Shown: piece after piece, positions 1,887 to 18,249 of the stretch
How positions within the stretch are numbered: position 1 is the stretch's first letter
Layout: every line of letters starts with the position of its first letter
Virus record (IMG/VR): IMGVR_UViG_3300025030_000409
Coordinates: 1-24,225 of that record
Origin: a virus
Direction: 5' to 3' (one strand)
Length of the DNA stretch: 24,225 nt
Notes under the pieces: generated by a model
The model's database searches: none
What the model was told of the DNA's origin: nothing
The model's input: the letters and a program-made list of their open reading frames with translations, nothing else
Program-made: the position numbers and the translations under genes

Positions 1887-3166
1887 GCTTTCGCCCAGAC
1901 CACTCGGTCTACTGGCAGAACCAACTGGAATCTGGCAGCACGATATATATTCATGCCCGCGATATCCGACGAGAGCGGGGGTATCTCTATGCTGAAGTTG
2001 CTATCTATGATCGGAAGACCCGCCTGGCAGCCGACGATTTCGCAGTCAAGCGGAATGAGGATCGCCGGCGGCTCTGCAAGGAGGCTCATGGGGCTCTTAG
2101 CGATGCTAGTAAAGCAGCCTATCCCTTGGACTATCTCAAGCACGATGTTGATATGTTCCTTGAGGAGCTACCCCGGTTTTGGGAAGAGGACCAATTTGCC
2201 CTGGACACCTATGCACCAGGAGAGGAAATACCGGCCATGTCCTTCGTGATTGTGCCCTATCTGATAGAGGATGCTATCACCATCGTGTACGGCCCCCAGG
2301 GAACAGGCAAAAGCTACTTGGCCAAGCTTATGGGGTTGAACATGTGTGGCGCTACTAATGGTTTCTGGCCAATACCCCAACCGCGGCCTGTGCTCTACGT
2401 CAACCTGGAAAGGCCCAAGCGGAGCATGGAGAGACGGGCGCGGATGCTGATGGCGGTGCTCGCCATTACGACACTCCCCTGCATGGACTATCTCCATGCG
2501 CCGGGGGCGCACCTGCCGACTATCGCCCCACGGTTGCGGGCCTGGCTGCAAGCGCACGCTGGTGGCGTGTTCATCCTGGACTCGCTCTCATTCACCCAGG
2601 TCGGCGCCCTGAATGATGATACCACCGCGGCAAAGGCTATCGGACTACTCCGCACGGTAGGGGGGACCTGGTTGGTTCTAGGCCATACCCCTCGGGCCGA
2701 CACGGGGCACTTAATCGGGTCAACTCTTCAGGATGCCGGCGCGGACGTGATGATCAGGCTTGCCTCGGAGCGGAAGGGAAACACTAACGGCCTGATGATG
2801 GAAGTCACCAAGGCTAACGACATCGGTTTTCCAGAGAGATACTTCCTGGCCTTCGAGTTTAGCCAAGGAGATGCAGAAGGGCGGAGCGACCTGGTTAAGG
2901 TGCGAAAGGCCAGTGGTCGGGAATTTCCCGAACTAGTAGCTGGCGGCAAGGTTACGAACCACGATAAGCTCCGGGCATATCTGCAAGAGGTTAGCGAGGC
3001 TACGCCGTCAGAGGCCTCCGCTGCCACGGGGGTTCCCTATACGACCGTTTCCACTATGCTGAATTCCTCCGAAAGTTTTGTCTTTTTGCGCAAGCGGGGT
3101 AAATTTAAGCTCTATGGAGTCCGAGCAGCACCCCAAGAAGAGGACGATGGCGACCTTCCTCCTTAA
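1877..3166 (+). CDS. RepA-like RecA-fold replicative helicase/ATPase
   Basis: 429 residues from GTG 1877 inside the end of the primase gene. Walker A is GPQGTGKS (139-146), Walker B VFILDSLS (231-238), and WLVLGHTPR (265-273) is the RecA-type sensor strand ending in His, typical of RepA/DnaB-like hexameric helicases (AAA_25 group). The C-terminal 90 residues (about 345-415; EVSEATPSEASAATGVPYTT) look like a winged-helix domain. Residues 1-110 are unassigned. It is expected to unwind DNA at the fork with the adjacent primase-polymerase. The TAA stop is part of the left arm of the first inverted repeat downstream. The first residues of the frame could alternatively be reached by a later start. 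Confidence 0.85.
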   Translation: MDLSFRPDHSVYWQNQLESGSTIYIHARDIRRERGYLYAEVAIYDRKTRLAADDFAVKRNEDRRRLCKEAHGALSDASKAAYPLDYLKHDVDMFLEELPRFWEEDQFALDTYAPGEEIPAMSFVIVPYLIEDAITIVYGPQGTGKSYLAKLMGLNMCGATNGFWPIPQPRPVLYVNLERPKRSMERRARMLMAVLAITTLPCMDYLHAPGAHLPTIAPRLRAWLQAHAGGVFILDSLSFTQVGALNDDTTAAKAIGLLRTVGGTWLVLGHTPRADTGHLIGSTLQDAGADVMIRLASERKGNTNGLMMEVTKANDIGFPERYFLAFEFSQGDAEGRSDLVKVRKASGREFPELVAGGKVTNHDKLRAYLQEVSEATPSEASAATGVPYTTVSTMLNSSESFVFLRKRGKFKLYGVRAAPQEEDDGDLPP

Positions 3167-4262: not shown

Positions 4263-4558
4263 GGATACTGCACCTCTACGGACAGGGAGCGTGGCACGAT
4301 GATGTATGGATTGTGGGGGATCACGAGGCACTGGTAGAGTTGATGGCAACGATTCAGCGAGCGAGGAACATGGGGGAGGGCGTCTGCGAGGCATCGGTGA
4401 ACGATGGAGAGGGCTTTCGTGTCCATGTCGTCGAGTGCCTGCCGGCCGTGATCCCGGAATTGTGCTTGCCGTATTTCGATCCGATGGCTACGGAGCGGGA
4501 GGACGACCACCGGACGCACAAATGGCCGTGGGAGTTGCTGGGGGTGAAGCATGAGTAA
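4259..4558 (+). CDS. Hypothetical protein, 99 residues
   Basis: ATGA overlap with the preceding gene. The N-terminus MRILHLYGQGAWHDDVWIVGD looks like a beta-alpha start; EALVELMATIQRA is a helix; the tail is HKWPWELLGV. The pattern suggests a small compact alpha/beta fold, but no family is recognised. Confidence 0.65.
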   Translation: MRILHLYGQGAWHDDVWIVGDHEALVELMATIQRARNMGEGVCEASVNDGEGFRVHVVECLPAVIPELCLPYFDPMATEREDDHRTHKWPWELLGVKHE

Positions 4559-4814: not shown

Positions 4815-5201
4815 TTGCGGGAGATAGCCTGGTTCGAGGTGCCGATGTTACCCCCTGCATCGCAGTCTCCGAATTCAAGGGTGCATTGGGCGGTTCGTGC
4901 CCGCGAGCGCCACGAGTTCATGCAGATGGTGGGGTTGGCAGCGCTAGCGAAGGGGGTGAAAGACTGGAAACTCTCCGGCGTGGAAATTGGCTTCGATCTC
5001 ATTGTAGCTCAGAAGCGGCGCAGGGATGCGGATAACCTCATGGCCAGGGTCGGAAAACCTGTTCTGGATTCGCTGGTGAACCTGGGGGTGCTGGTGGACG
5101 ACTCTATCGAGCATGTCGCGGTGCGGTTCGTGACTGTGACGGTGGACCCGGTCCGGGCACCGCGGACCATCATCTCTATATGGCAGGAGGCGCCTGAGTG
5201 A
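4815..5201 (+). CDS. rusA: RusA-like Holliday-junction resolvase
   Basis: 128 residues. RRRDADNL followed by KPVLDSLVNLGVLVDDS is the RusA (PF05866) signature, with acidic metal ligands in DADN and in VDDS; the first strand AWFEVPMLPPASQSPNSR corresponds to the family start. RusA dimers cut Holliday junctions at branch points, so here it would resolve recombination or replication intermediates before packaging. Start uncertain: TTG 4815 keeps the first strand but has no visible Shine-Dalgarno site; GTG 4839 and ATG 4845 (GAGG just upstream) would remove it. Its stop overlaps the GTG of the methyltransferase gene. Confidence 0.85.
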   Translation: MREIAWFEVPMLPPASQSPNSRVHWAVRARERHEFMQMVGLAALAKGVKDWKLSGVEIGFDLIVAQKRRRDADNLMARVGKPVLDSLVNLGVLVDDSIEHVAVRFVTVTVDPVRAPRTIISIWQEAPE

Positions 5202-6013
5202 TGCCAATGCAGTCCCTAGTCTGTAGCCTTTCCCCTGGCCTGGGGATCTTGGACTTGGCGTTCGAGTCCGAAGGCTTTTGCATCGTCCGCGGTCCTGACC
5301 CCATCTGGGGCGGTGACAACCGCCGGTTTCATCTGGAGCCCGGCATATTTCCCGGCATAATCGGCGGACCGCCATGCCAGGAGTTCTCATCGCTGTCGCA
5401 CTTGGTGCGGCACAATGGGGGGACCCCCAAGTGGGGGAACCTGATACCGGAATTCTGCAGGGTGATCACCGAGGCCCAACCGGATTGGTGGCTCATGGAG
5501 AATGTGCGGCAAGCGCCATTGCCGATCGTGGAGGGCTATGTAGTCCGGGACTACCTGCTCAATAACCGATGGGTGGGAGGCACGCAACACAGGGTGCGGC
5601 GATTCTCCTTCGGGACCAGGGATGGACGGGAGTTGGACCTTAGCGCGGACCTGGTCATATTCGAGGCCGCAGACTTCGGCTGGGCCGTCTATGCTGGCCA
5701 TGGCCCGACTCCTAGCCAGCGAGATAAGGTGCGCCGCCAAGCCGTCACAAGCGATATGCGGGTTGACGATCACCGGCATCTGACCCGAAAGAACGTCCTT
5801 CCCCATGATAAAGGGGGTAAACTGGTCCCCCTGGGCGCAATGCTGCAACTACAAGGGCTACCGGAAGACTGGCTAGATCATTGCCCTTTCACCATGCAGG
5901 GCAAGAAGGCAGCGGTCGGCAATGGCGTGCCTCAACCCATCGACCGAGCCCTGGCCAAGGCAGTGAAGCGTGCTATGCAGTACGAGTTCGAGGGGGAAGG
6001 AGCGAAAGGATGA
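5198..6013 (+). CDS. DNA (cytosine-5) methyltransferase
   Basis: 271 residues, short for the family, so the target-recognition region must be small. Motif I LSPGLGILDLAFESEGF (11-27), catalytic motif IV GGPPCQEFS with C60, motif VI MENV (100-103), motif VIII QHRVRRFSFG (130-139) and motif X AVGNGVPQPIDRALAKA near the end are all visible and in order. It would methylate cytosine in a specific site, most likely to protect phage DNA from host restriction. GTG 5198 has AGGAGG nine bases upstream; ATG 5201 is the alternative. No partner endonuclease is adjacent, so this is an orphan enzyme. Confidence 0.92.
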   Translation: MMPMQSLVCSLSPGLGILDLAFESEGFCIVRGPDPIWGGDNRRFHLEPGIFPGIIGGPPCQEFSSLSHLVRHNGGTPKWGNLIPEFCRVITEAQPDWWLMENVRQAPLPIVEGYVVRDYLLNNRWVGGTQHRVRRFSFGTRDGRELDLSADLVIFEAADFGWAVYAGHGPTPSQRDKVRRQAVTSDMRVDDHRHLTRKNVLPHDKGGKLVPLGAMLQLQGLPEDWLDHCPFTMQGKKAAVGNGVPQPIDRALAKAVKRAMQYEFEGEGAKG

Positions 6014-6381
6014 ACTGGCGCCGCCGGTTGCTTCGCCTCTATGCCCAACTTCCGACATTCGAGTGCGTACCTGGATGCTCTCACTGCTGTGGCCCGACGC
6101 CCTGCGCGCCATCTGAGACGGCGCTTATCGCGCAGTGGCTCACCCAGCGGGGACTTGCGGTGCTCCACTCTCCATTGGCCGTTCTGCCTACGACGGATGG
6201 CCTGACCTGCGTGTACGCTGGGGCCGATGGATGCTCTATCTACCCCGTTCGCCCTTTCATGTGTCGGCTCTACGGCTCTATCCCCAAGCTGCGCTGTCCC
6301 CTCGGTCGGGGGCCTGCGGAGCCCTTGAGTGAGTCCGCCGAGGCGTCCCTTATGCGTGAATATCTGGCGGCTTGGGTATAA
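6010..6381 (+). CDS. YkgJ-type Cys-cluster (zinc/iron-chelating) protein
   Basis: 123 residues, ATGA overlap with the methyltransferase. ECVPGCSHCCG near residues 18-29 is the CxxxxCxxCC motif of the YkgJ/PF03692 family; the second half has CSIYPVRPFMCRLYG and RCPLG, supplying further Cys ligands in the conserved order. Family members bind Zn or an Fe-S cluster; the enzymatic role is unknown. The C-terminal extension after RCPLG is helical. Assigned from motif order only. Confidence 0.75.
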   Translation: MNWRRRLLRLYAQLPTFECVPGCSHCCGPTPCAPSETALIAQWLTQRGLAVLHSPLAVLPTTDGLTCVYAGADGCSIYPVRPFMCRLYGSIPKLRCPLGRGPAEPLSESAEASLMREYLAAWV

Positions 6382-6382
6382 C

Positions 6383-6484
6383 ATGAAGAACTTCATGTTT
6401 CTCCTGGTCGTCTCGCTCCCGTTTTGGGGGCTGTTGGATTGGCCTGAGTGTGGCAGTGTGGCAGAGTGGACTACATGCAGATAA
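6383..6484 (+). CDS. Possible 33-residue membrane peptide
   Basis: ATG 6383, TAA 6482. Residues 3-19 (NFMFLLVVSLPFWGLLD) form one hydrophobic segment followed by a Cys-containing tail. A 16-base palindrome (CATGAAG AA CTTCATG, 6382-6397) covers the start codon. There is no convincing Shine-Dalgarno site. It fills the gap between two solid genes. Could be a small membrane or lysis-related peptide, or not expressed. Confidence 0.3.
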   Translation: MKNFMFLLVVSLPFWGLLDWPECGSVAEWTTCR

Positions 6485-6503
6485 TGCAGCAGGTGAGGGA
6501 ACG

Positions 6504-6782
6504 ATGATATTTGATGACCTTATAATAGCAGAACGGATACAACAGGATAAGAAGTGGGGGCAACAGGATCATTTACCCATTGAGTGGCTGGGGATACTTT
6601 CCGAGGAAGTCGGAGAGCTTGCTCAGGCAATTGTAAATCGGCACTTTAGTAAGTCTGCTGACGATGGACTACAAATCCAACTGGAATTAATCCAAGTTGC
6701 TGCCGTAGCTCGCTCAATATGGGAATGCGGTGAGCGCAACCATTGGTGGCTACCCACCCAAATTAGAGAGAATGCGGGTTAG
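6504..6782 (+). CDS. MazG-like NTP pyrophosphohydrolase-type protein
   Basis: 92 residues from ATG 6504 (AGGGA just upstream). AERIQQDKKWGQQDH and WLGILSEEVGELAQAI give the all-alpha NTP-PPase core; EEVGE supplies the first metal ligands and QLELIQVAAVA the second helix. Relatives hydrolyse nucleoside triphosphates such as dCTP, dUTP or (p)ppGpp-like molecules and are common phage house-cleaning or host-modulating enzymes. Length and motif spacing fit the minimal form. Substrate not deducible. An open frame with a signal-like start begins inside its 3' end at 6772. Confidence 0.75.
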   Translation: MIFDDLIIAERIQQDKKWGQQDHLPIEWLGILSEEVGELAQAIVNRHFSKSADDGLQIQLELIQVAAVARSIWECGERNHWWLPTQIRENAG

Positions 6783-10978: not shown

Positions 10979-11613
10979 GACAATATCTCCCTCAGGCGGG
11001 CTTCCTGCCATGCTCGCTCGGCGTACCAGGCGGACTCGGCGGCGTACTCGGCGTACCAGGCGGACTCGGCGGCGTACTCGGCGGCAAACCAGGCGGACTC
11101 GGCGGCGGACTCGGCGGCGGACCAGGCGGACCTGGCGGCGGACTCGGCGGCGGACCAGGCGGACCTGGCGGCGGACTCGGCGGCAAACCAGGCGGACCTG
11201 GCGGCGGACTCGGCGGCGGACCATGCGGACCTGGCGGCGGACTCGGCGGCGTCGAGTTCTTCCCTGCTGGCCTCGGCGGCGGCGAAGCGTCGGGCCACTG
11301 CGATAGCCTCCCGCGGTCGGCTGTCGTGAGGGCAGAGGGCCTCGAAAATCGGCAGCACATGCTCCGCGTAGTCGCAGGCCAGCACGCGGGCGAAACGGTC
11401 TCGCTCCTGTTCTTGTTCCGCCGGTACGGCCCGCAACGCCCAGAGCGCGTCATCCAGGCCGTTCAGGTCCAGGATTTGCAGGAGCGTGATGGGGCGGTCG
11501 TGGCTGTAGTGTGGCCCCAGGGCCGAGCGCAGGTGGGGGTACCGATTAGTGCACGCGTCGTGCTGCCGGAGCAGCCGGAGCGTGGTGGTTAGGGTCGTCA
11601 TGTTGTAGCTCAC
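10975..11613 (-). CDS. Imm5-like ('putative immunity protein' type) with Ala-Trp tandem repeats
   Basis: 212 residues from GTG 11613, placed by AAAGGAGAAG seven bases upstream. The N-terminal 115 residues contain ITLLQILDLNGLDDALWALRAV, ACDYAEHVLPIFEALCPHDSRPREAI and ARRFA, which match the N-terminal pattern of uncharacterised phage proteins often labelled Imm5-like putative immunity proteins. Residues about 122-198 are seven copies of an 11-residue unit (AAESAARSAWS), presumably a long amphipathic helix or helical solenoid. Immunity function in a phage is not established; the name is by pattern only. A GNRA hairpin element lies just upstream. Confidence 0.65.
   Translation of the reverse strand: MSYNMTTLTTTLRLLRQHDACTNRYPHLRSALGPHYSHDRPITLLQILDLNGLDDALWALRAVPAEQEQERDRFARVLACDYAEHVLPIFEALCPHDSRPREAIAVARRFAAAEASREELDAAESAARSAWSAAESAARSAWFAAESAARSAWSAAESAARSAWSAAESAAESAWFAAEYAAESAWYAEYAAESAWYAERAWQEARLREILS
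11020..11250 (-). repeat. 33-bp tandem repeats encoding AAESAARSAWx
   Basis: About seven copies of a 33-bp unit, the last ones more diverged (AAEYAAESAWY, AEYAAESAWY). Every unit keeps the frame except for one 3-bp deletion, so copy number is free to vary. Confidence 0.85.
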
Positions 11614-11627
11614 TTTTCTTCTCCTTT

Positions 11628-11650
11628 AACGCCCGGCCTCACGACCGGGT
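11628..11650 (-). repeat. GNRA hairpin element, copy 1
   Basis: Sense strand is minus. The stem CCCGGTC/GGCCGGG with loop GTGA; the outermost pair is lost. It ends just before AAAGGAG and the GTG at 11613. Confidence 0.8.
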
Positions 11651-11672
11651 TCCCGTGAAAACCGTATAGTTT

Positions 11673-12506
11673 TTAATCCAGCACCTTGAGTCTCTGCACC
11701 CGGACCTTCGCGTCCATCGTAGGTAGGCCGGCAAACAGAATATCCGCGCTGGCCACTTCCACCCGCAGGCAAATCAGATCGTGGCCAGGGGCGCACAGTC
11801 CCACCCATTCCGGCCGGTATCCGGGACGCAGCACATGCAGCCCCGCCGCGCACTGCTGATCGCTCACTACGGCCTCCGCCTCGACGACGGCTTCCTGCGC
11901 GTACGTCAGCACCGTACCCCCATCGAAATTGGGGGACTTCCGGGCAGGAGTCACCCATTTCCAAAAGATGTGGGTTTCTGAACCAGAGAGGTACGCTTGG
12001 CGGAAACATTCGTTCAATGCCTCGCTAGTCACGCCGTCTCCCAGGCGCACGCCGTTCCCCAGGCTCACGTTGTTCCCCAGGCGCACGCCGTCCCCCAGGC
12101 TCACGTTGTTCCCCAGGCTCACGTTGTTCCCCAGGCTCACGCCGTCCCCCAGGCTCACGCCGTCTCCCAGGCTCACGTAGTTCCCCAGGCTCACGTTGTT
12201 CCCCAGGCTCACGCCGTCCCCCATGCTCACGTTGTTCCCCAGGCTCACGTTGTTCCCCAGGCTCACGCCGTCCCCCAGGCGCACGCCGTCCCCCAGGCTC
12301 ACGTTGTTCCCCAGGCTCACGCCGTTCCCCAGGCTCACGTTGTTCTCCAGGCTCACGCCGTTCCCCAGGCTCACGTTGTTCCCCAGGCGCACGCCGTCCC
12401 CCAGGCTCACGCCGTCCCCCAGGCTCACGCGCTGGCCGCCGGGGCTAGTGTGCCAGCCGTGCGTTATTGGCCAGCTACGGATTTCTGTAGTTGTAGTTGT
12501 AACCAT
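11673..12506 (-). CDS. Left-handed beta-helix (hexapeptide repeat) protein with C-terminal domain
   Basis: 277 residues. Residues 27-158 are 22 consecutive hexapeptides of the form VSLG(N/D)(N/G), that is L-G-x-x-V-S in the register of the left-handed parallel beta-helix; 22 hexads make about seven turns. The C-terminal 110 residues (FDGGTVLTYAQEAVVEAEAV, CAAGLHVLRPG, DLICLRVEV, RVQRLKVLD) form a separate domain resembling a conserved phage accessory domain whose function I cannot name. Beta-helices of this type are found in acyltransferases, ice-binding proteins and viral fibres; no acyltransferase catalytic His is evident. The 20-residue start is Thr-rich. A GNRA hairpin precedes the start. 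Confidence 0.8.
   Translation of the reverse strand: MVTTTTTEIRSWPITHGWHTSPGGQRVSLGDGVSLGDGVRLGNNVSLGNGVSLENNVSLGNGVSLGNNVSLGDGVRLGDGVSLGNNVSLGNNVSMGDGVSLGNNVSLGNYVSLGDGVSLGDGVSLGNNVSLGNNVSLGDGVRLGNNVSLGNGVRLGDGVTSEALNECFRQAYLSGSETHIFWKWVTPARKSPNFDGGTVLTYAQEAVVEAEAVVSDQQCAAGLHVLRPGYRPEWVGLCAPGHDLICLRVEVASADILFAGLPTMDAKVRVQRLKVLD
12033..12428 (-). repeat. 18-bp tandem repeats encoding 22 hexapeptides
   Basis: Twenty-two in-frame 18-bp units, mainly alternating GTGAGCCTGGGGAACAAC and GTGAGCCTGGGGGACGGC types. Third-base identity between units is high, which means recent duplication or gene conversion. Confidence 0.92.
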
Positions 12507-12927
12507 CGTCCCCTCTCATTCCAACGCCCGGCCTCACGACCGGACTGACTACTCGGCCTAAGCGGTACACGTGCCCGCAGCTACATGTCCTGAAAATGTA
12601 GCGACGCGAACGTTGCCACGGGCTCCACCGACCCACAGAAACAGGCGTGCAATTATGGGGCGGGAGGCTAGGTGCAGGTGGGTCCACAAGTGCTCCCTTT
12701 GGCAACAGCGTAGGCTGCGCCGCCAGCTTGTTCCGCACCTGCACGATATTTATGGTGTACGGGCCGGATTCCATGTCCGCCACGATCTGGTCTTTGCCCA
12801 TAGCTTCAAAGTAATCGCGGTCAGATGGCTCCCCATCCTCCCACCAGTACCCCGTTTTTTGTTGGGGAGTGAGGTAAACGGTGATAACTCTATTCGTAGC
12901 GTCCCACCAACATCGTGTGGACTTCAT
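12475..12927 (-). CDS. Hypothetical protein, 150 residues
   Basis: ATG 12927 after GGAGAAGGGGAG. STRCWWDATNRVITVYL and PYTINIVQV are strands; RRYIFRTCSCGHVYRLGRV has a CxC-G-H cluster that may bind zinc. The frame does not stop where the neighbours' genes do: it runs through the whole hairpin element (residues VVRPGVG) and into the next gene by 32 bases before TAG 12475. The last 20 residues may therefore be a by-product of a lost stop codon. Family unknown. Confidence 0.6.
   Translation of the reverse strand: MKSTRCWWDATNRVITVYLTPQQKTGYWWEDGEPSDRDYFEAMGKDQIVADMESGPYTINIVQVRNKLAAQPTLLPKGALVDPPAPSLPPHNCTPVSVGRWSPWQRSRRYIFRTCSCGHVYRLGRVVSPVVRPGVGMRGDDGYNYNYRNP
12523..12550 (-). repeat. GNRA hairpin element, copy 2
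   Basis: The consensus stem GTCCGGTC/GGCCGGGC with loop GTGA, inside the reading frame of the upstream gene and before GAGGGG and ATG 12506. Confidence 0.85.
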
Positions 12928-12943
12928 CTCCCCTTCTCCTTCC

Positions 12944-12971
12944 AACGCCCGGCCTCGCGACCGGACTGGCT
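12944..12971 (-). repeat. GNRA hairpin element, copy 3
   Basis: The consensus stem with loop GCGA, flanked by AGCCA and GTTGGA, followed by GGAGAAGGGGAG and ATG 12927. Confidence 0.88.
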
Positions 12972-12975
12972 TTGG

Positions 12976-13257
12976 TTATTCCGCTCCGGCCCCGATGTCA
13001 TTGGCGTCCTCAAACCCGCGGAAGAGGCCGCTGCGAAAGCCCTTCACGAAATCCTTTTCACAGTCCGGGTCGTCCATCAGGACGCAGTTCTGAGATTTGC
13101 GGTAGGAATCAACGACGTTGTCTGCGTTGGCCGTGAATTGCTCATACGTTGCCCAAGGATTTCCTTGGGCGTCAGCTATCCCTGCCTCGAATCCGAGAAG
13201 CCAGGGGTTCTCGTAATCGCTGATGTTGAGGGGCTGGCCGGCCTTGAAGATAAACAT
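12976..13257 (-). CDS. Hypothetical protein, 93 residues
   Basis: ATG 13257 after GGAGGAGGAG. ENPWLLGFEAGIADAQGNPWA and DCEKDFVKGFRSGLFRGFEDA are two similar amphipathic segments of the form GFxxGxxxG, a pattern known from small phage proteins with a repeated FxxGF helix. Acidic overall. A GNRA hairpin precedes it. Function unknown. Confidence 0.65.
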   Translation of the reverse strand: MFIFKAGQPLNISDYENPWLLGFEAGIADAQGNPWATYEQFTANADNVVDSYRKSQNCVLMDDPDCEKDFVKGFRSGLFRGFEDANDIGAGAE

Positions 13258-13280
13258 CTCTAGTCCTTTCTCCTCCTCCC

Positions 13281-13308
13281 AACGTCCGGCCTCACAGCCG
13301 GGCTTGCT
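13281..13308 (-). repeat. GNRA hairpin element, copy 4
   Basis: The stem GCCCGGCT/GGCCGGAC with loop GTGA; one C-A mismatch, and C-G replaces the usual U-G in the seventh pair. Followed by GGAGGAGGAG and ATG 13257. Confidence 0.8.
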
Positions 13309-13332
13309 TCGTTCCGCAGGCCTTCCAGTTGC

Positions 13333-13569
13333 CTACCCCTCCACAAAGCGCTGCAATTGCGCTACGCGATCCCATTCCCAATGGCCTATGGCCCCGTTGT
13401 GGAATTTGTACCCCGGCGGGACAACCACCCGGTCGCTATATCCGCCTGCCCGGGCGCAGTCCCTCTGGTCGCTGGCAATGCACTTGTCGGCTGCTGCGAT
13501 GGTTTGATGAGAGTGGCCGCACGAACCGCGGACACTCCCTACGCATTTATACCCTGCTCCCGCTGCCAT
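13333..13569 (-). CDS. Small Cys/His protein, 78 residues
   Basis: ATG 13569 after AAAGGAGAGGGACA. GYKCVGSVRGSCGHSHQTIAAADKCIASD has three Cys and two His in a zinc-finger-like spacing. It resembles the protein at 16138-16359, which has YGECGHAHRSDDAAVKCA: both share CGHxHx(6-7)KC, so the two cassettes may be distant paralogues. Function unknown. Confidence 0.65.
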   Translation of the reverse strand: MAAGAGYKCVGSVRGSCGHSHQTIAAADKCIASDQRDCARAGGYSDRVVVPPGYKFHNGAIGHWEWDRVAQLQRFVEG

Positions 13570-13585
13570 TGTCCCTCTCCTTTCT

Positions 13586-13613
13586 AACGCCCGGCCTCGC
13601 GACCGGACTGGCT
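13586..13613 (-). repeat. GNRA hairpin element, copy 5
   Basis: The consensus stem, loop GCGA. Its first base is the last base of the upstream gene's TAA stop. Followed by AAAGGAGAGG and ATG 13569. Confidence 0.88.
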
Positions 13614-14107
13614 TATGGAGTGCCCGGCAGCATATCGAGAAATATTTGCTGGCGCTCCTCAGGCGTCAGGGTTTCCATTGCGGCGCGGGCGACCATAATG
13701 AATTCCTGCCGCTCATTTTGTGCCAACTCGGAGAGCTTCGGGCCGTGACCGGCCAAGTACTCCTCAATCGCGGGCCAGAGCCGTGGCGCCCAATCGCGTG
13801 CATCGATGATCGTTTCTAAAAGAGCGACTTGTCCCTCCTCATCGACCACGAAGAGGTTGTGCGTGCTGGACTGGTTTTTGCGGCTCCCCGATATGGAGCA
13901 GTCCAAGTATAGCGATGGGCTGATCCATTGGAGTCGATCTTCGTTGAGGAACTCCCCCCGTAGGGAATACCCGTCCGTGTTGAGCTTGTTCAGCCCAGTC
14001 ACGGTCTTGATCCAGCCGCCGTTGTAGCGGCTGTAGCGTGTGCCAGCGGCCTGTTTAGCCAGCGCGTTCGGATTCAGCAACATCTGCCCCTTTTGGTTCC
14101 GGTCCAT
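13613..14107 (-). CDS. Hypothetical protein, 164 residues
   Basis: ATG 14107 after GAAGGAGAGGGAAA. The N-terminal part is LLNPNALAKQAAGTRYSRYN, a central beta-rich part contains RGEFLNEDRLQWISPSLYLD, and LFVVDEEGQVALLETIIDA looks like a conserved strand-helix unit; the C-terminus is helical (SELAQNERQEFIMVARAAME and TPEERQQIFLDML). No family recognised. The TAA stop abuts hairpin copy 5. Confidence 0.65.
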   Translation of the reverse strand: MDRNQKGQMLLNPNALAKQAAGTRYSRYNGGWIKTVTGLNKLNTDGYSLRGEFLNEDRLQWISPSLYLDCSISGSRKNQSSTHNLFVVDEEGQVALLETIIDARDWAPRLWPAIEEYLAGHGPKLSELAQNERQEFIMVARAAMETLTPEERQQIFLDMLPGTP

Positions 14108-14125
14108 TTTCCCTCTCCTTCGTCC

Positions 14126-14153
14126 AACGTCCGGCCTCACGACCGGACTGGCT
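14126..14153 (-). repeat. GNRA hairpin element, copy 6
   Basis: The stem GTCCGGTC/GGCCGGAC with loop GTGA; the second pair is U-A instead of U-G, which keeps the helix. Followed by GAAGGAGAGG and ATG 14107. Confidence 0.88.
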
Positions 14154-14163
14154 TCGCGCGTGC

Positions 14164-14334
14164 TTAGGCCCGAACCTCGAAGTACTCCTTACACAACGGG
14201 CAGTACCCCGTAAGGTCCGCCGCATCGTTCCATCGCAATTCGATCTGCTCGCTGCCGCACAACGGGCAGCTACCCAGTGCGTTCAGTGCGTTCAGTGCGT
14301 CCAGATACTCCTGGCTGATTCTGCTCGTAATCAT
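14164..14334 (-). CDS. Double-CxxC zinc-ribbon microprotein, 56 residues
   Basis: ATG 14334 after AGAAGGAGAAGGAC, TAA 14164-14166. GSCPLCGSEQ and GYCPLCKEYFEV, separated by 22 residues, form a textbook zinc ribbon. The N-terminal helix includes a short tandem repeat (ALNALNALG, from three 9-bp units at 14275-14301). Bounded on both sides by hairpin elements. Function unknown. Confidence 0.75.
   Translation of the reverse strand: MITSRISQEYLDALNALNALGSCPLCGSEQIELRWNDAADLTGYCPLCKEYFEVRA
14275..14301 (-). repeat. Three 9-bp tandem repeats
   Basis: CAGTGCGTT twice and CAGTGCGTC once (plus-strand reading); in frame, coding ALN-ALN-ALG. Confidence 0.8.
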
Positions 14335-14348
14335 GTCCTTCTCCTTCT

Positions 14349-14376
14349 AACGCCCGGCCTCTCGACCGGACTGGCT
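14349..14376 (-). repeat. GNRA hairpin element, copy 7
   Basis: The consensus stem with loop GAGA, still a GNRA sequence. Followed by AGAAGGAGAAGG and ATG 14334. Confidence 0.88.
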
Positions 14377-14384
14377 TCGTTGAG

Positions 14385-14561
14385 CTAGATGCTCTCTAGT
14401 GGTTCTCTCTGCACTGGTAGGTTGCAAACTAGGCAGATAGCGTCTGCCGGACCGTCCTCCCAGGCGAGAGCATTGCCGGAGGAATCCCAGCACACAGGAA
14501 TTTCCCTGTGTGCTTTGGGAAATTGGCAGTAGGTCTCTGTTGGGCTCTCGATCATGTTCAT
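14385..14561 (-). CDS. Small Cys-containing protein, 58 residues
   Basis: ATG 14561 (or 14555) after GGAGAAGGAGATGGGGAA. YCQFPKAHREIPVCWDSSGNA and ICLVCNLPVQ: a CxxC plus two earlier Cys suggests a zinc ribbon. Function unknown. Confidence 0.6.
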   Translation of the reverse strand: MNMIESPTETYCQFPKAHREIPVCWDSSGNALAWEDGPADAICLVCNLPVQREPLESI

Positions 14562-14579
14562 TTCCCCATCTCCTTCTCC

Positions 14580-14607
14580 AACGCCCGGCCTCACGACCGG
14601 ACTGGCT
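14580..14607 (-). repeat. GNRA hairpin element, copy 8
   Basis: The exact consensus stem, loop GTGA, followed by GGAGAAGGAG and ATG 14561. Confidence 0.88.
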
Positions 14608-14619
14608 ACTCCGCTAACG

Positions 14620-14649
14620 CCTGCCCCTGAAGAGGCAGGATGTCAGGGG
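14620..14649 (-). other. Two mutually exclusive hairpins
   Basis: CCTGCC (14620-14625) pairs with GGCAGG (14634-14639), and CCCCTGA (14624-14630) pairs with TCAGGGG (14643-14649). The arms overlap, so only one can form. It lies between the stop of the gene ending at 14662 and hairpin element 8. Confidence 0.5.
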
Positions 14650-14661
14650 ACTAGCGCCCAC

Positions 14662-15063
14662 TCACGTAGGCGGGTTGCCTTCGCCTCGCGGCGCAGCCTC
14701 AAACAGTTCCAACCGTTCCAACCGTTCCAACGTTAGAACTTGTCCGGGTTGTAAATATTGGGCTCTTGAATCTTGCGCGCTCAGGTGAGCGCGTAAAACT
14801 GAGGCCCGGTAGCTGAAACTGAGGAGAGTATCAAACTCCTCCTCGGTTTCGGGCATTTCTACGGGGGAACAGTAGTCCCTCGCTTCCTGGTAGGTGGGGA
14901 AGCTTCTCTCCCACCCTTCACCAGGGGGACAACCCCGCCTCCAAAGCATCCAACCAGTTTTAGACCGACGTAGCCAGATGTTATGGTGAGTATGTTGACT
15001 GCATCTGACTGGTACTGCCTCAACAAAGAGATCAGCTTCGCAACATACAGTGCTGATTTTCAT
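14662..15063 (-). CDS. Hypothetical protein, 133 residues
   Basis: ATG 15063 after AGAAGGAGAAACGGAG. The first half is Cys/His-rich (STVCCEADLFVEAVPVRCSQ, then HTHHNIW) and contains RSFPTYQEARDYC; the second half is acidic and helical. Near the end, LERLERLEL comes from three 9-bp tandem repeats. No family recognised. Confidence 0.6.
   Translation of the reverse strand: MKISTVCCEADLFVEAVPVRCSQHTHHNIWLRRSKTGWMLWRRGCPPGEGWERSFPTYQEARDYCSPVEMPETEEEFDTLLSFSYRASVLRAHLSAQDSRAQYLQPGQVLTLERLERLELFEAAPRGEGNPPT
14706..14732 (-). repeat. Three 9-bp tandem repeats
   Basis: GTTCCAACC twice and GTTCCAACG once; in frame, coding the LERLERLE stretch of the gene at 14662-15063. Confidence 0.8.
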
Positions 15064-15079
15064 CTCCGTTTCTCCTTCT

Positions 15080-15101
15080 AACGCTCGGCCTCGGACTGGT
15101 T
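15080..15101 (-). repeat. GNRA hairpin element, copy 9 (degenerate)
   Basis: Same position and flanks (AACCAGTCCG and GCGTT) but an internal deletion removes the tetraloop and part of each arm. It probably no longer folds as the others do. The gene downstream (ATG 15063) keeps a normal Shine-Dalgarno site. Confidence 0.7.
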
Positions 15102-15125
15102 GGGTTTTGCCAGGGTCAGGCACGA

Positions 15126-15656
15126 TCAATACCACGTGCCATCCTGGTTCTGGTGAGTGAAGATGGTTTTCCCATCCCACGGGCAATCGGGGCAAAGCGC
15201 GGCATGGAGCGCGAGTAGTGCCGGCATGTGCGCAGCAATGCCCTCGTCCCGTAGGCGGTTGCCCTCGGACCGTAGGCGGTTGCCCTCGGTCCACAGCCGG
15301 GTGCCCTCGGCCCACAGGCGGTCACCCTCGATCCACAGGCGGTTGTCCTCAGCCCGTAGGCGGTCGCCCTCGATCCACAGGCGGTCGCCCTCGGCACGTA
15401 GGCGTCTGCCCTCGGCCCACAGGCGGCTGCCCTCGTCCCGTAGGCGGTTGCCCTCGGTCCACAGGCGTCTGCCCTCGTCCCGTGTCTCCCCCAGCGCGGC
15501 GGGGAGGCGCTCAGGCGGGATGAGTTGAAACAGCCTCAGGCGGAGCGGGATTTCCGATGCGGGCTTATTGGCGCGGATATATTCCACGCGCTTCTCGAAG
15601 CTGGTTACGATCTCGAGGAGTACATCGTGATGGCAGTGCACCCCTAGCTCGTCCAT
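15126..15656 (-). CDS. Heptad-repeat protein (RLxxEGx), 176 residues
   Basis: ATG 15656. Residues 1-60 form a helical N-terminal domain (DVLLEIVTSFEKRVEYIRAN, PERLPAALGE). Residues 64-140 are 11 consecutive heptads RL(W/R)xEG(N/D), presumably a long coil or helical solenoid. The last 35 residues, MPALLALHAALCPDCPWDGK followed by TIFTHQ, form a short terminal domain with CPDCPW. Such RLxAEGD repeats are seen in uncharacterised environmental phage proteins. Function unknown; the repeat array is probably a variable-length spacer or binding rod. Confidence 0.75.
   Translation of the reverse strand: MDELGVHCHHDVLLEIVTSFEKRVEYIRANKPASEIPLRLRLFQLIPPERLPAALGETRDEGRRLWTEGNRLRDEGSRLWAEGRRLRAEGDRLWIEGDRLRAEDNRLWIEGDRLWAEGTRLWTEGNRLRSEGNRLRDEGIAAHMPALLALHAALCPDCPWDGKTIFTHQNQDGTWY
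15237..15467 (-). repeat. 21-bp tandem repeats encoding 11 heptads
   Basis: Eleven in-frame 21-bp units. Units alternate RLW and RLR types and share most bases with each other, consistent with unit duplication. Confidence 0.9.
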
Positions 15657-15671
15657 TCCCGTTCTCCTTTC

Positions 15672-15699
15672 AACGCCCGGCCTCGCGACCGGGCTGGCT
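15672..15699 (-). repeat. GNRA hairpin element, copy 10
   Basis: The stem GCCCGGTC/GGCCGGGC with loop GCGA; C-G replaces the consensus U-G at pair two. Followed by AAAGGAGAAC and ATG 15656. Confidence 0.88.
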
Positions 15700-15738
15700 T
15701 TAGTCCCTCTCGCTTGGGGCTGACCCAGGCGGCAGGGG

Positions 15739-15939
15739 CTAGATGCACCCGCAGCCGTACCGTCGGTCCTCGGCGGTACATCTGCACGGCGAGCCGTCAG
15801 GTGCTCTATGCCAGGACTCAGCGTGGGGGTGCGCTGTCCGATAAGCCTGGTGTTCTGGCCCAGGCTTGTCCTGGATATGGTTGGCGAGCAGACTATACCA
15901 CTTGCCACAAACCGGGCAGTATCCCTGTCCCGTTCTCAT
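15739..15939 (-). CDS. Cys-rich zinc-binding microprotein, 66 residues
   Basis: ATG 15939 after GGAGAAGAAGGGACG. GYCPVCGKWYS at the start, then ANHIQDKPGPEHQAYRTAHPH, then PCRCTAEDRRYGCGCI at the end. The first CxxC with the two His groups resembles a C2H2-like finger; the C-terminal Cys cluster could bind a second metal. Preceded by a type-2 hairpin, not the GNRA type. Confidence 0.65.
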   Translation of the reverse strand: MRTGQGYCPVCGKWYSLLANHIQDKPGPEHQAYRTAHPHAESWHRAPDGSPCRCTAEDRRYGCGCI

Positions 15940-15960
15940 CGTCCCTTCTTCTCCCTTTCC

Positions 15961-15987
15961 ACTACTCCCCGGCCCGGCCAGGGGACC
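15961..15987 (-). repeat. Type-2 start-associated hairpin, copy 1
   Basis: Sense strand minus. The stem is TCCCC/GGGGA with inner GGC/GCC and a one-base bulge. It occupies the same position relative to the Shine-Dalgarno site (AAGGGAGAAG) and ATG 15939 as the GNRA element elsewhere. Sequence unrelated to type 1 except GC content. Confidence 0.7.
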
Positions 15988-15990
15988 TGT

Positions 15991-16034
15991 TCTCCGCTCG
16001 AATCTGCCCGTACGTGGGCAGGTGCCAGCGGAGA
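15991..16034 (-). other. Nested 44-base hairpin in a geneless cassette
   Basis: The outer stem TCTCCGCT/AGCGGAGA (15991-15998, 16027-16034), a symmetric 5+5 internal loop, the inner stem CTGCCC/GGGCAG (16004-16009, 16016-16021), loop of six. All pairs perfect. No reading frame with a start occupies the interval 15988-16068, so this is a candidate structured RNA. Confidence 0.6.
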
Positions 16035-16068
16035 GGCTGGCTATTCAGTTGTCAGGTTGTCATTGAGA

Positions 16069-16074
16069 TTACAT
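16069..16074 (-). other. Start-stop codon pair (ATG TAA) behind a good Shine-Dalgarno site
   Basis: On the minus strand GGAGAGGGAGAGCC is followed by ATG (16074-16072) and directly by TAA. Hairpin copy 12 lies upstream as for real genes. Either the remnant of a lost gene or a minimal ORF that loads and releases ribosomes. Confidence 0.5.
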
Positions 16075-16088
16075 GGCTCTCCCTCTCC

Positions 16089-16116
16089 AACGCCCGGCCT
16101 CGCGACCGGACTGGCT
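16089..16116 (-). repeat. GNRA hairpin element, copy 11 (before ATG TAA)
   Basis: The exact consensus stem with loop GCGA and flanks AGCCA and GTTGGA, but followed by a start-stop pair and not by a gene. Confidence 0.88.
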
Positions 16117-16137
16117 ACTCCGCGCCCGACCTTGGCG

Positions 16138-16359
16138 TTAGACGCCTACGGTAGTCCTCCGCGTGCACCGATCCGCGACGCGGCGGAGGTCTGCGCGGGA
16201 ATTGATGCCATAGAATTCTGCCGCTTGCTTGTCGCCGTGCAGGATTCGGATGGCGCACTTCACGGCGGCATCGTCTGACCTGTGGGCATGGCCGCATTCG
16301 CCGTATGGCCACGTATCAGAATAATAGTATGTGGTGACTCCGTGCCGGTCTTTCATCAT
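16138..16359 (-). CDS. Small Cys/His protein, 73 residues
   Basis: ATG 16359 (or 16356) after GGAGAAGGAGAGGA. TTYYYSDTWPYGECGHAHRS, DDAAVKCAIRILHG and then a basic tail. CGHAHxxxDAAVKC is shared with the protein at 13333-13569 (CGHSHx6DKC), suggesting an old duplication of a cassette. Function unknown. Confidence 0.65.
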   Translation of the reverse strand: MMKDRHGVTTYYYSDTWPYGECGHAHRSDDAAVKCAIRILHGDKQAAEFYGINSRADLRRVADRCTRRTTVGV

Positions 16360-16373
16360 TCCTCTCCTTCTCC

Positions 16374-16401
16374 AACGCCCGGCCTCACGGTCGGACTGGC
16401 T
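16374..16401 (-). repeat. GNRA hairpin element, copy 12
   Basis: The stem GTCCGACC/GGCCGGGC with loop GTGA; one A-C mismatch, while the seventh pair is C-G instead of U-G. Followed by GGAGAAGGAGAGGA and ATG 16359. Confidence 0.82.
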
Positions 16402-16457
16402 TGCTGTTACCGTGTAATAGCTGCCGGGCTGTGGGCTTGGTTAGCGCTTGGCGCCGC

Positions 16458-16622
16458 CTAGCCGCGAGGCAGTACGGTAACTCCGGGTTGGTTTGTTTGC
16501 GATGGTGCGCAAGCCACGCAAACCGGGCATGTGGGGCGCTTCCCGCTGAGACTGATTGGTCGGGTCAGTCTACTGCCACACACCCTGCAGTACTCATACG
16601 TGCGCCCGATTTTCAGTGTCAT
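16458..16622 (-). CDS. Zinc-ribbon microprotein, 54 residues
   Basis: ATG 16622 after GAAGGAGTATACG; TAG 16458-16460. YEYCRVCGSRLTRP and RPTCPVCVACAPSQ are two CxxC knuckles 17 residues apart, plus a further CxxC. The tail is short and unstructured. The 57 bases between its stop and hairpin copy 12 hold nothing recognisable. Confidence 0.7.
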   Translation of the reverse strand: MTLKIGRTYEYCRVCGSRLTRPISLSGKRPTCPVCVACAPSQTNQPGVTVLPRG

Positions 16623-16633
16623 CGTATACTCCT

Positions 16634-16945
16634 TCAACGTCCGGCCTCGCGACCGGGCTTGCTAACTAAACTGCTTTCGGGCTCGCTCTTCGCCACAGGC
16701 ATATCAATTACGGCATCGGCGGCCCGACTGGCCTCGATCTGCTCAGTGCGTGCTGTGGCGATTGATTCCAACTCTGCGCGGCACTCATCATCCGCGTACC
16801 GAGCTAGCTTGGAGGCGATGGCGGGCTTGTCGGTCCATCACCGCCGCTGGGCGGGGTCCCACCGGAGGCCCGCGTCTTTGGGGATACCGCGCTCGTCGAA
16901 TGATGAGAGGGCTATGTAGTTGCTGCCCTCGCGTATGAGCCTCAT
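16634..16945 (-). pseudogene. Interrupted gene: in-frame TGA at a conserved Trp position
   Basis: ATG 16945 after a type-2 hairpin and AAAGGGAGAAG. The frame codes for a start SNYIALSSFDERGIPKDAG, LRWDPAQRR, then TGA (16840-16838), and continues in the same frame for 67 more codons: WTDKPAIASKLARYADDE, a charged helix and a tail that reads through hairpin copy 13 to TGA 16634-16636. The pattern PKxAGxRWxPxxxxWWT...A..L..YAD is known from phage and plasmid proteins, and there the interrupted position is Trp (TGG). So the gene is either inactivated by a TGG-to-TGA change, decoded by read-through, or affected by a sequence error. Elsewhere the genome uses TGA as a normal stop. Confidence 0.65.
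16636..16663 (-). repeat. GNRA hairpin element, copy 13
   Basis: The stem GCCCGGTC/GGCCGGAC with loop GCGA, one C-A mismatch. Followed by GAAGGAG and ATG 16622. It lies in the read-through frame of the interrupted gene. Confidence 0.82.
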
Positions 16946-16970
16946 CGTTCCGTTTCTCTCTTCTCCCTTT

Positions 16971-16998
16971 AACTACTCCCCGACCCGGCCAGGGGACC
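16971..16998 (-). repeat. Type-2 start-associated hairpin, copy 2
   Basis: Same as the copy at 15961, with one arm base changed so that a G-C pair becomes G-U. Followed by AAAGGGAGAAG and ATG 16945. Confidence 0.7.
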
Positions 16999-17029
16999 CG
17001 CCGGGCTTGTCACCGGCCTTGCGCATTAC

Positions 17030-17045
17030 AGGCCCCGAAGGGCCT
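17030..17045 (-). other. UUCG-tetraloop hairpin after the DUF2786 gene
   Basis: Minus strand AGGCCC-TTCG-GGGCCT: a six-bp perfect stem with an exceptionally stable UUCG loop, 10 bases after the gene's stop. No T-run follows, so probably an mRNA 3'-end protector or processing stop rather than a terminator. Confidence 0.6.
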
Positions 17046-17054
17046 TGACTCTGC

Positions 17055-17768
17055 CTAGGATAAGAGTAACCGGCCGCTGGTTAGAGTGCCCGGCCGTGAG
17101 AACGACACCCGGCTACCGGCCTGACGTCCAGCGGTCAGTCCCTCGTTGGATGTGGCACGCCCGGCACTACCACGCGCCAGGTGCGGGAATACGCCTTTGA
17201 CGGCTCTGTCTACGAGGTCCTTTTGGTAGAGTACCAGTGCCCGACCTTCCCCTTGAGCGAACGCCTCAAGGGGCTTGGCTAGGCGGTCGCGCAGAGTGGA
17301 CACGGCGCCGATAAAGTAGCTGGTCTTCCACGTTGTGCCATGCGTCCGGCCGCCGCTGGCCCGGTAGGTTTTGAAGTCCTTGAGAGCCATGCCTTCGAGT
17401 TGTTCGCCAATCCACAGGTACATAGAAAGGACTACCCGCACGTTGGTCCTGGTCCCGAACAGGTGAATCTTGCTGTCGGCCGGAGACCGTATTACCCGGC
17501 ATAGATTCGCTTTGGCGATAACGTGCGCTAAGGTTGGGCGCCAGTTATGATCGTATCCAAGATCAAGCATCCCGGCCTTTTCAGTCTCGCCCTTACCGTT
17601 GCCGGTATCCAAGCTGGCCCTGTCCAGGTTGTGCTTGAGTAAAAGCGCCTGTGCGCGCTCCAATGCAAGGGCGGCCTCGTTGGGGTTGCTGTTCGGATGC
17701 TCTGCCATCCGCAGCAGAGCGGTAATTTTCTCTAGTAGTGCATCGGAGACGGTAGCCGTGGTAGTCAT
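17055..17768 (-). CDS. DUF2786-domain protein
   Basis: 237 residues from ATG 17768, which overlaps the preceding stop (ATGA). LLEKITALLRMAEHPNSNPN followed by EAALALERAQALLLKHNLD (about residues 10-48) is the DUF2786 (PF10979) helical pair. The middle (LAHVIAKANLCRVI, IHLFGTRTNVRVVLSMY) and RTHGTTWKTSYFIGAVSTLR match the C-terminal half usually found with DUF2786. The family is common in phages and actinobacteria; function unknown. This is the only gene in the middle of the leftward block without a start-associated hairpin, consistent with its direct coupling to the ArdC-N-like gene. Confidence 0.8.
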   Translation of the reverse strand: MTTTATVSDALLEKITALLRMAEHPNSNPNEAALALERAQALLLKHNLDRASLDTGNGKGETEKAGMLDLGYDHNWRPTLAHVIAKANLCRVIRSPADSKIHLFGTRTNVRVVLSMYLWIGEQLEGMALKDFKTYRASGGRTHGTTWKTSYFIGAVSTLRDRLAKPLEAFAQGEGRALVLYQKDLVDRAVKGVFPHLARGSAGRATSNEGLTAGRQAGSRVSFSRPGTLTSGRLLLS

Positions 17769-18199
17769 AGCGCTTTCCACCCTTCCATTAGGCTCTCGGT
17801 GCGATCGGCACTGGGCTTTGTGTTGTAGAATCCGGCAACTGTGAATCCCTGTGCTTCTGCTGTACCTTGTGCTGCCTGCGGCCGTGGTTGCGGGGTGCTC
17901 TCGCCATTGGCGGGTTGGACCTGGTGCCGACAGAACACGAAGCTCATGCCCTTCACCCGCTTGGTTTCTTCGGTATCCGCGTCCTGGACCTCCTTGATTA
18001 AGGGAAGGCGAATCGCCTTCTCTCCTCGCTGTACCTGGAATCCCATCGCTTGCCAGCGGCCGTAGGTGAACACATCCTGGTACGGTTGGCAGCCACAGGT
18101 TAGCGTACTGACTACTTTGGAGGCGTTCGCTTCGGAGTAGCGGCTGAACACTTGGGCCTGGGTAGGTGTGAGCTTCCGTGCTATACTGGGCTTGGACAT
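17765..18199 (-). CDS. ArdC N-terminal-like ssDNA-binding (anti-restriction type) protein
   Basis: 144 residues from ATG 18199, with AAAGGAG nine bases upstream; upstream in-frame starts lack a site. CGCQPYQDVFTYGRWQAMGF then QVQRGEKAIRLPL and GMSFVFCRHQV follow the ArdC-N order (..F.TY..W...G.qV+KGEKg..v..P........f..v.vF...Q). ArdC of plasmid pSa binds ssDNA and protects it from restriction endonucleases. Only the N-terminal domain is present; the C-terminal metallopeptidase of full ArdC is missing and replaced by a Gln/Pro-rich tail. The next gene is coupled to it. Confidence 0.7.
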   Translation of the reverse strand: MSKPSIARKLTPTQAQVFSRYSEANASKVVSTLTCGCQPYQDVFTYGRWQAMGFQVQRGEKAIRLPLIKEVQDADTEETKRVKGMSFVFCRHQVQPANGESTPQPRPQAAQGTAEAQGFTVAGFYNTKPSADRTESLMEGWKAL

Positions 18200-18226
18200 G
18201 ATAGCTTGCTCCTTTCGTGTCCATCG

Positions 18227-18249
18227 CCCGGCAGTCTCAAGCTGCCGGG
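18227..18249 (-). repeat. Type-3 start-associated hairpin
   Basis: The minus-strand stem CCCGGCAG/CTGCCGGG, 8 bp perfect, loop CTTGAGA. It sits between the gene ending at 18261 and the ArdC-N-like start, before AAAGGAG, like the other elements. Confidence 0.75.

Follow-up and report, generated by a model that had tools for sequence, protein, structure and literature searches.

The stretch of DNA analysed here (the window, 24,225 nucleotides of the IMG/VR virus record IMGVR_UViG_3300025030_000409) is a fragment of a virus of ~60 kb, of which a 59,695-base version (G002) is 99.6-100% identical. Gene direction is mostly uniform, the exception being a minus-strand block from about 18.9 to 9.6 kb of the window that encodes ArdcN, DUF2786 and a series of small genes, mostly without a known family. 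Between 16.66 and 11.63 kb, a short hairpin, AAGCCAGTCCGGTCGNGAGGCCGGGCGTT, occurs on the minus strand in 12 clear copies and a degenerate one, each with a Shine-Dalgarno (SD) sequence between the copy and a start codon. The hairpin resembles one arm of the type-P5 twister ribozyme, a complete copy of which lies upstream in the same block, and probably derives from such ribozyme leaders. The copies, all on the minus strand, are:

16636..16658 (-): leader hairpin c1, one C-A mismatch, before ORF 16622-16458
16374..16396 (-): leader hairpin c2, A-C mismatch, before ORF 16359-16138
16089..16111 (-): leader hairpin c3, followed by ATG and then directly TAA, no gene; preceded by GCGGAGTAG
15672..15694 (-): leader hairpin c4, before ORF 15656-15126
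15080..15103 (-): degenerate copy c5, in which a 6-base deletion (GGTCGN) removes the loop, before ORF 15063-14662
14580..14602 (-): leader hairpin c6, before ORF 14561-14385; preceded by GCGGAGTAG
14349..14371 (-): leader hairpin c7, GAGA loop, before ORF 14334-14164
14126..14148 (-): leader hairpin c8, U-A pair, before ORF 14107-13613
13586..13608 (-): leader hairpin c9, before ORF 13569-13333
13281..13303 (-): leader hairpin c10, C-A mismatch, before ORF 13257-12976
12944..12966 (-): leader hairpin c11, before ORF 12927-12475
12523..12545 (-): leader hairpin c12, before ORF 12506-11673 (hexapeptide-repeat protein)
11628..11650 (-): leader hairpin c13, 7 bp, before the GTG-started ORF 11613-10975 (Imm5-like)

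The initial annotation had described thirteen start-associated hairpins, all in the direction of the genes, and this description holds, as do the loop sequences, the lost outer pair, the lost loop and the single mismatches that it listed. A search with GTCCGGTCGNGAGGCCGG at up to 3 mismatches returned 12 matches, all on the minus strand, where 0.23 were expected, and this number was reached in 0 of 100 shuffles. In every one of the 13 copies CGTT stands 13-23 nt ahead of the start codon; on the two strands of G002, only 1.1% and 2.5% of all positions have an SD-bearing ORF of at least 40 amino acids starting at that distance downstream. No further copies were found elsewhere in the 59.7-kb genome of G002. 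The claim that a hairpin precedes almost every start of the block needs qualification: c3 (16111-16089) precedes no gene, and the genes starting at 16945 and 15939 use another leader element instead (D11, see below), the former with a ribozyme ahead of it.

The hairpin is more stable than its shuffled versions (z -3.0 to -4.1), and 8 of the 13 copies have 8 unbroken pairs and one more has 7. Conservation of the stem sequence and of its flanks, AAGCCA and GTT, exceeds what pairing requires. That the differences between copies support pairing, as previously proposed, was not borne out: there are 0 compensatory changes, 92.3% of the cells are paired versus 93.3% after shuffling, and the covariation score falls below the shuffled mean, although the divergence among the 13 copies is too small for this lack of covariation to exclude a structure. 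One-sided changes from U-G to C-G or U-A, which preserve pairing, are as expected of unselected transitions, and pair two, given earlier as U-G, U-A or C-G, is a C-A mismatch twice and U-A once. Intrinsic terminators can be dismissed, in agreement with the initial annotation, since no T-run follows the hairpins and a terminator scan found none of the elements. An integron attC site or gene cassette (GTTRRRY and RYYYAAC, ~55 bases or more, tyrosine recombinase) was also rejected: GTTRRR, the start of the attC R box, is present at the hairpin copies, but the final Y occurs in 1 of 13, there is no consistently paired R box, and no tyrosine recombinase (PF00589) is found in the genome.

A twister ribozyme lies upstream of the array, where the DUF2786 gene is followed by the gene that starts at 16945. 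The features of this junction, and the other copy of its second leader element, are:

17058..17768 (-): DUF2786 gene (phrog_421), immediately upstream of the twister
17001..17055 (-): type-P5 twister ribozyme, leader of the gene starting at 16945, 51.3 bits against a gathering score of 37.6
16965..16998 (-): D11, a second leader element between the twister and the SD of gene 16945
15954..15987 (-): second copy of D11, 88% identical, before the SD of gene 15939

All conserved blocks of the family Twister-P5 (RF02684) could be aligned in the ribozyme at 17055-17001, i.e., GCAGAG, P1, UAAUGC and CCGGU-CAAGCCCGG. Its cleavage site is expected, by analogy, in TGT/AATGC, so that the 3' product would begin near 17027. 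The ribozyme is followed by D11, the SD and the start of gene 16945; the predicted fold of D11 is not better than that of shuffled versions.

Complete twisters occupy this same place in other phages. A twister-core pattern is present in 59 stretches of IMG/VR viral contigs, most of them 13-50 nt before an SD and a start, and the Rfam model, run over 46 records, revealed blocks of 5-9 twister-P5 ribozymes, one per gene. Such arrays occur in G035, G045, G047, G048 and G049 and in G040, G042, G019, G038, G021 and G015, the latter with 6-9 twisters, each right before an SD and start (L195, L196, L197, L198, L199 and L200, respectively). Of the 70 twisters in 13 fetched blocks, 65 are followed within 120 nt by an SD-bearing start (ORF of at least 30 amino acids), mostly at 13-60 nt, a range into which 18% of random positions fall. 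Among phages in general twisters are uncommon, with 0 of 35 other records, gathered for other reasons, containing one. Some twister-bearing phages also have leaders that contain only the P4 stem-loop of the twister, 15-42 nt ahead of a start (L174, L161, L165 and L146); in L174, from phage G047, GCAGAG is followed by eight bases and then by CCGGTCTCAAGCCCGG, 18 nt before the ATG. G047 also has DUF2786 adjoining its array, but as a general marker of twister phages DUF2786 was discarded because G047 and the window virus are the only twister carriers searched that have it. Relatives of the DUF2786 protein were found neither in GTDB genomes nor in INPHARED. Probable twisters of another permutation, with GCAGAG after P4, precede starts in L208 and L145 and score below the Rfam gathering threshold.

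The twister ends at its 3' side with the P4 stem-loop, CCGGUCACAAGCCCGG, which the downstream message would retain once the ribozyme has cleaved. The hairpin of the window, CCGGTCGCGAGGCCGG, matches the commonest form of this stem-loop at 13 of 16 bases, and its 5' flank AAGCCAG is similar to AAUGCGCAG, with which the cleavage product is expected to begin. In a comparison with 67 twister leaders, the score of the element exceeded that against GC-rich control leaders by 4.70. Among 1500 pair-shuffled hairpins (mean -0.16, sd 0.63) none reached this difference, nor did any of 103 real GC-rich GNRA hairpins; the matches span the loop C, A, G and the flank CAG besides the stem. An Rfam scan of one copy listed three families, among them Twister-P5, which aligned the hairpin to P4 at 8.6 bits (E 7.7, not significant alone), a partial match (model positions 41-58) below the gathering threshold. 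The cleavage core, UAAUGC and GCAGAG, is absent by sequence from all copies. Sequences resembling GCAGAG stand at its place in the shortened leader (GCGGAG in c3 and c6, GCCGAG in c12). Because GCAGAG, P1, UAAUGC and the CAAGCC loop are lacking, the array elements should not cleave, and we do not class them as members of the twister family, which is defined by a core that they were tested for and lack.

Since the hairpin resembles a twister arm and other phages place a whole twister at this position, the array looks like a ribozyme array minus its cutting half. We infer that the hairpins probably descend from twister leaders. The ancestral leader would have been a twister-P5, with the present hairpin corresponding to the P4 stem-loop at its 3' end, which after self-cleavage would remain on the downstream message right before the SD. 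At most junctions in the window virus the cutting half (GCAGAG, P1 and UAAUGC) would have been lost, a GNRA-capped stem would have arisen from the P4 loop through A-to-G and C-to-G changes, and this hairpin would then have spread along the operon; at the junction after DUF2786, upstream of the array, a complete ribozyme is retained, and it should cut the message. On the minus strand a promoter-like site lies upstream of the array (18880-18852), and none was found inside it. The hairpins may well be intercistronic leaders of one polycistronic phage message that were reduced from twister-P5 leaders and mark cistron boundaries, although the odds for and against this seem to us about even and we hold the function less certain than the homology. 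Boundaries would be set by active cleavage at the ribozyme junction and by a passive, stable hairpin elsewhere, so that each gene would start translation independently and the parts of the message would decay separately. For the RNase-type processing into monocistronic messages that had been suggested earlier, the support is the analogy with twister leaders.

Several observations weigh against descent from twisters or against a boundary function. The test of similarity to twister leaders was devised only once the resemblance had been noticed, and with a profile of twister 3' halves single copies are not significant (E about 10). No relative with an intermediate array turned up in the collections searched. 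The copies are more alike than independently decayed twisters would be, and therefore spread by duplication or conversion must be added to the scenario. The hairpin of c5 was lost before an intact ORF and thus the stem is not indispensable there. The simplest insulator mechanism is not favored by predicted folding, as the SD is 0.54 unpaired with native and shuffled hairpins alike.

The likeness to P4 could alternatively be a convergence of GC-rich hairpins, the array being an independent, lineage-specific start-associated hairpin that is bound by a host or phage protein and co-controls translation of the accessory genes. The sequence conservation beyond the needs of pairing would fit such a binding site, and the top Rfam match, weak as it is (14.1 bits, E 1.5), is a ribosomal-protein leader, L31-Coriobacteria. 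In contig L016, whose DUF2786 protein is 48% identical, the genes are preceded by a repeated leader structure of another kind, and leader repeats therefore seem lineage-specific. However, no candidate binding protein has been identified and the similarity to twister leaders exceeds that of all shuffled and real hairpin controls, and we regard this explanation as rather unlikely. Still less probable, in our opinion, is that the array is a functionless vestige of a ribozyme array, copied along when genes were duplicated with their leaders. P4-only leaders do exist in other phages, c5 has no hairpin, c3 has no gene and SD accessibility is not improved, but the stems are too uniform for unselected remains unless their spread was very recent.

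Near-identical repeats of ~30 bases on both sides of each small gene could also serve as DNA homology blocks for the exchange or deletion of cassettes by a phage RecT-like annealing protein, with any role as RNA secondary. The virus encodes a RecT-like protein and the geneless c3 would be readily accommodated. The relatives close to the window virus in the collections searched are all nearly identical, however, and those that cover the array have the same order and the same elements, without rearrangement or change in copy number. Furthermore, the distance to the start codon is nearly fixed, and the c4 gene has a 61% identical paralogue outside the block that lacks the element. Cassette swapping, one of the roles originally proposed, has thus no support so far and is, in our view, improbable. 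Even more so are repeated phage promoters, one per gene, comparable to T7-like promoters or to the extended start-associated sequences (ESAS) of cluster K mycobacteriophages. Elements repeated in one orientation just upstream of starts might suggest them, and ESAS, a similar-looking repeat, has been read in later work as containing SigA-like promoters (PMC11373665). Yet -10/-35-like hexamers are absent at the elements, a search with Pfam PF00940 (without a positive control) found no single-subunit RNA polymerase, and the element is a GC-rich palindrome with G-U wobbles.

Repeated start-associated elements in cluster K phages and twister ribozymes are already known, but the open-access papers searched describe no hairpin array that looks like twister leaders in reduced form. 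The initial annotation named the start-associated sequences (SAS) of cluster K as the nearest analogue. They do share with the array many copies in one orientation a few bases before starts, an association with non-structural genes and a block-wise distribution. They are, however, defined by a 13-bp sequence, GGGATAGGAGCCC, at the ribosome-binding site and by 17-bp inverted repeats (PMC3203893), from which the array consensus differs, and no ribozyme association has been reported for them; according to the cluster K authors the ESAS repeats do not support RNA pairing (PMC3203893). The phage Twister-P5 leaders, which that annotation missed, are nearer: they too are placed right ahead of the SD and start, in blocks where each small gene has its own, and their P4 stem-loop, CCGGT-NNCAAG-CCCGG, resembles CCGGTCNCGAGGCCGG of the array element, which lacks the catalytic half and the CAAGCC loop. 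In Mu-like records, type-II hammerhead ribozymes lie directly before a gene start, right after DUF2786 (L103) or one gene further (L102); these also place self-cleaving RNA at a start but represent another ribozyme class and occur in single copy. The RiboJ insulator (PMC9964548) combines a ribozyme with a short hairpin right before the ribosome-binding site, comparable to the twister and D11 before gene 16945. It is synthetic, however, a ribozyme is missing from the array copies, and folding of the array hairpins showed no predicted benefit in SD exposure. The L31-Coriobacteria leader (RF03128) is likewise a small hairpin directly followed by an SD, but its score is far below gathering (33) and the array hairpin is repeated before unrelated genes.

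The exact 22-base pattern occurs 0 times in GTDB genomes, and a covariance model (R1), the search that had been recommended earlier, matched in 72 sources and 47 twister-phage records its own virus and, elsewhere, only a single copy in L113 (L113:9741-9686 (-), 38.7 bits). This copy has 27 of 28 bases identical to c4 and precedes a small ORF, with 21 nt to the start codon. The phage is 106 kb long with 73% GC and has no twister in its genome, and the single match is therefore at most suggestive. Two other structured elements lie in the block:

15984..16070 (-): structured RNA 'B', z -4.2, possible loop pseudoknot UCUCC/GGAGA, between the orphan c3 (ATG-TAA) and D11
18226..18249 (-): unrelated hairpin before the ArdcN gene at 18199; its plus strand reads as a terminator-like site

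Structure B was considered as a known ribozyme but has no Rfam match. In L016, and only in this contig, a strongly folded repeated leader of ~85 nt and of no known class (2966-3055 and 4292-4373) stands before genes adjoining ArdcN/DUF2786, at junctions that correspond to the hairpin at 18249 and the twister of the window. The gene at 16945 contains an in-frame TGA (16840-16838, minus strand) where tryptophan looks expected (RR*WTDK); readthrough would extend the frame to the CGTTGA of copy c1, and the same TGA is present in the covering relatives. Coding tandem repeats are found at 12029-12430 (18-nt hexapeptide repeats) and 15239-15483 (21-nt heptad repeats, RLWTEGN) of the window, and repeats in the Imm5-like gene (11016-11267) differ between strains. 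The virus further encodes an RNA ligase (PF09414, phrog_548) alongside the RecT-like protein (L096:11605-12597 (-) and 5131-6507 (-)), and this ligase may matter considering the RNA ends made by ribozymes.

Hammerhead and twister ribozymes have been reported to occur in clusters, close to genes of Mu-like phages and to one another, for a reason stated as unknown (PMC10085705). The arrays described here, with a twister before each SD and start, suggest a concrete and testable role, the separation of cistrons in phage messages. Tentatively, phages may use arrays of leader RNAs, one per gene, to split accessory operons into independent units, with twisters in many lineages and, in the lineage studied here, non-cleaving GNRA hairpins into which such an array evolved and which would still work at every boundary, one ribozyme being kept upstream. 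If this is true, a lineage that went from ribozyme to hairpin would allow, as a natural experiment, the effect of cleavage to be distinguished from that of the hairpin left over.

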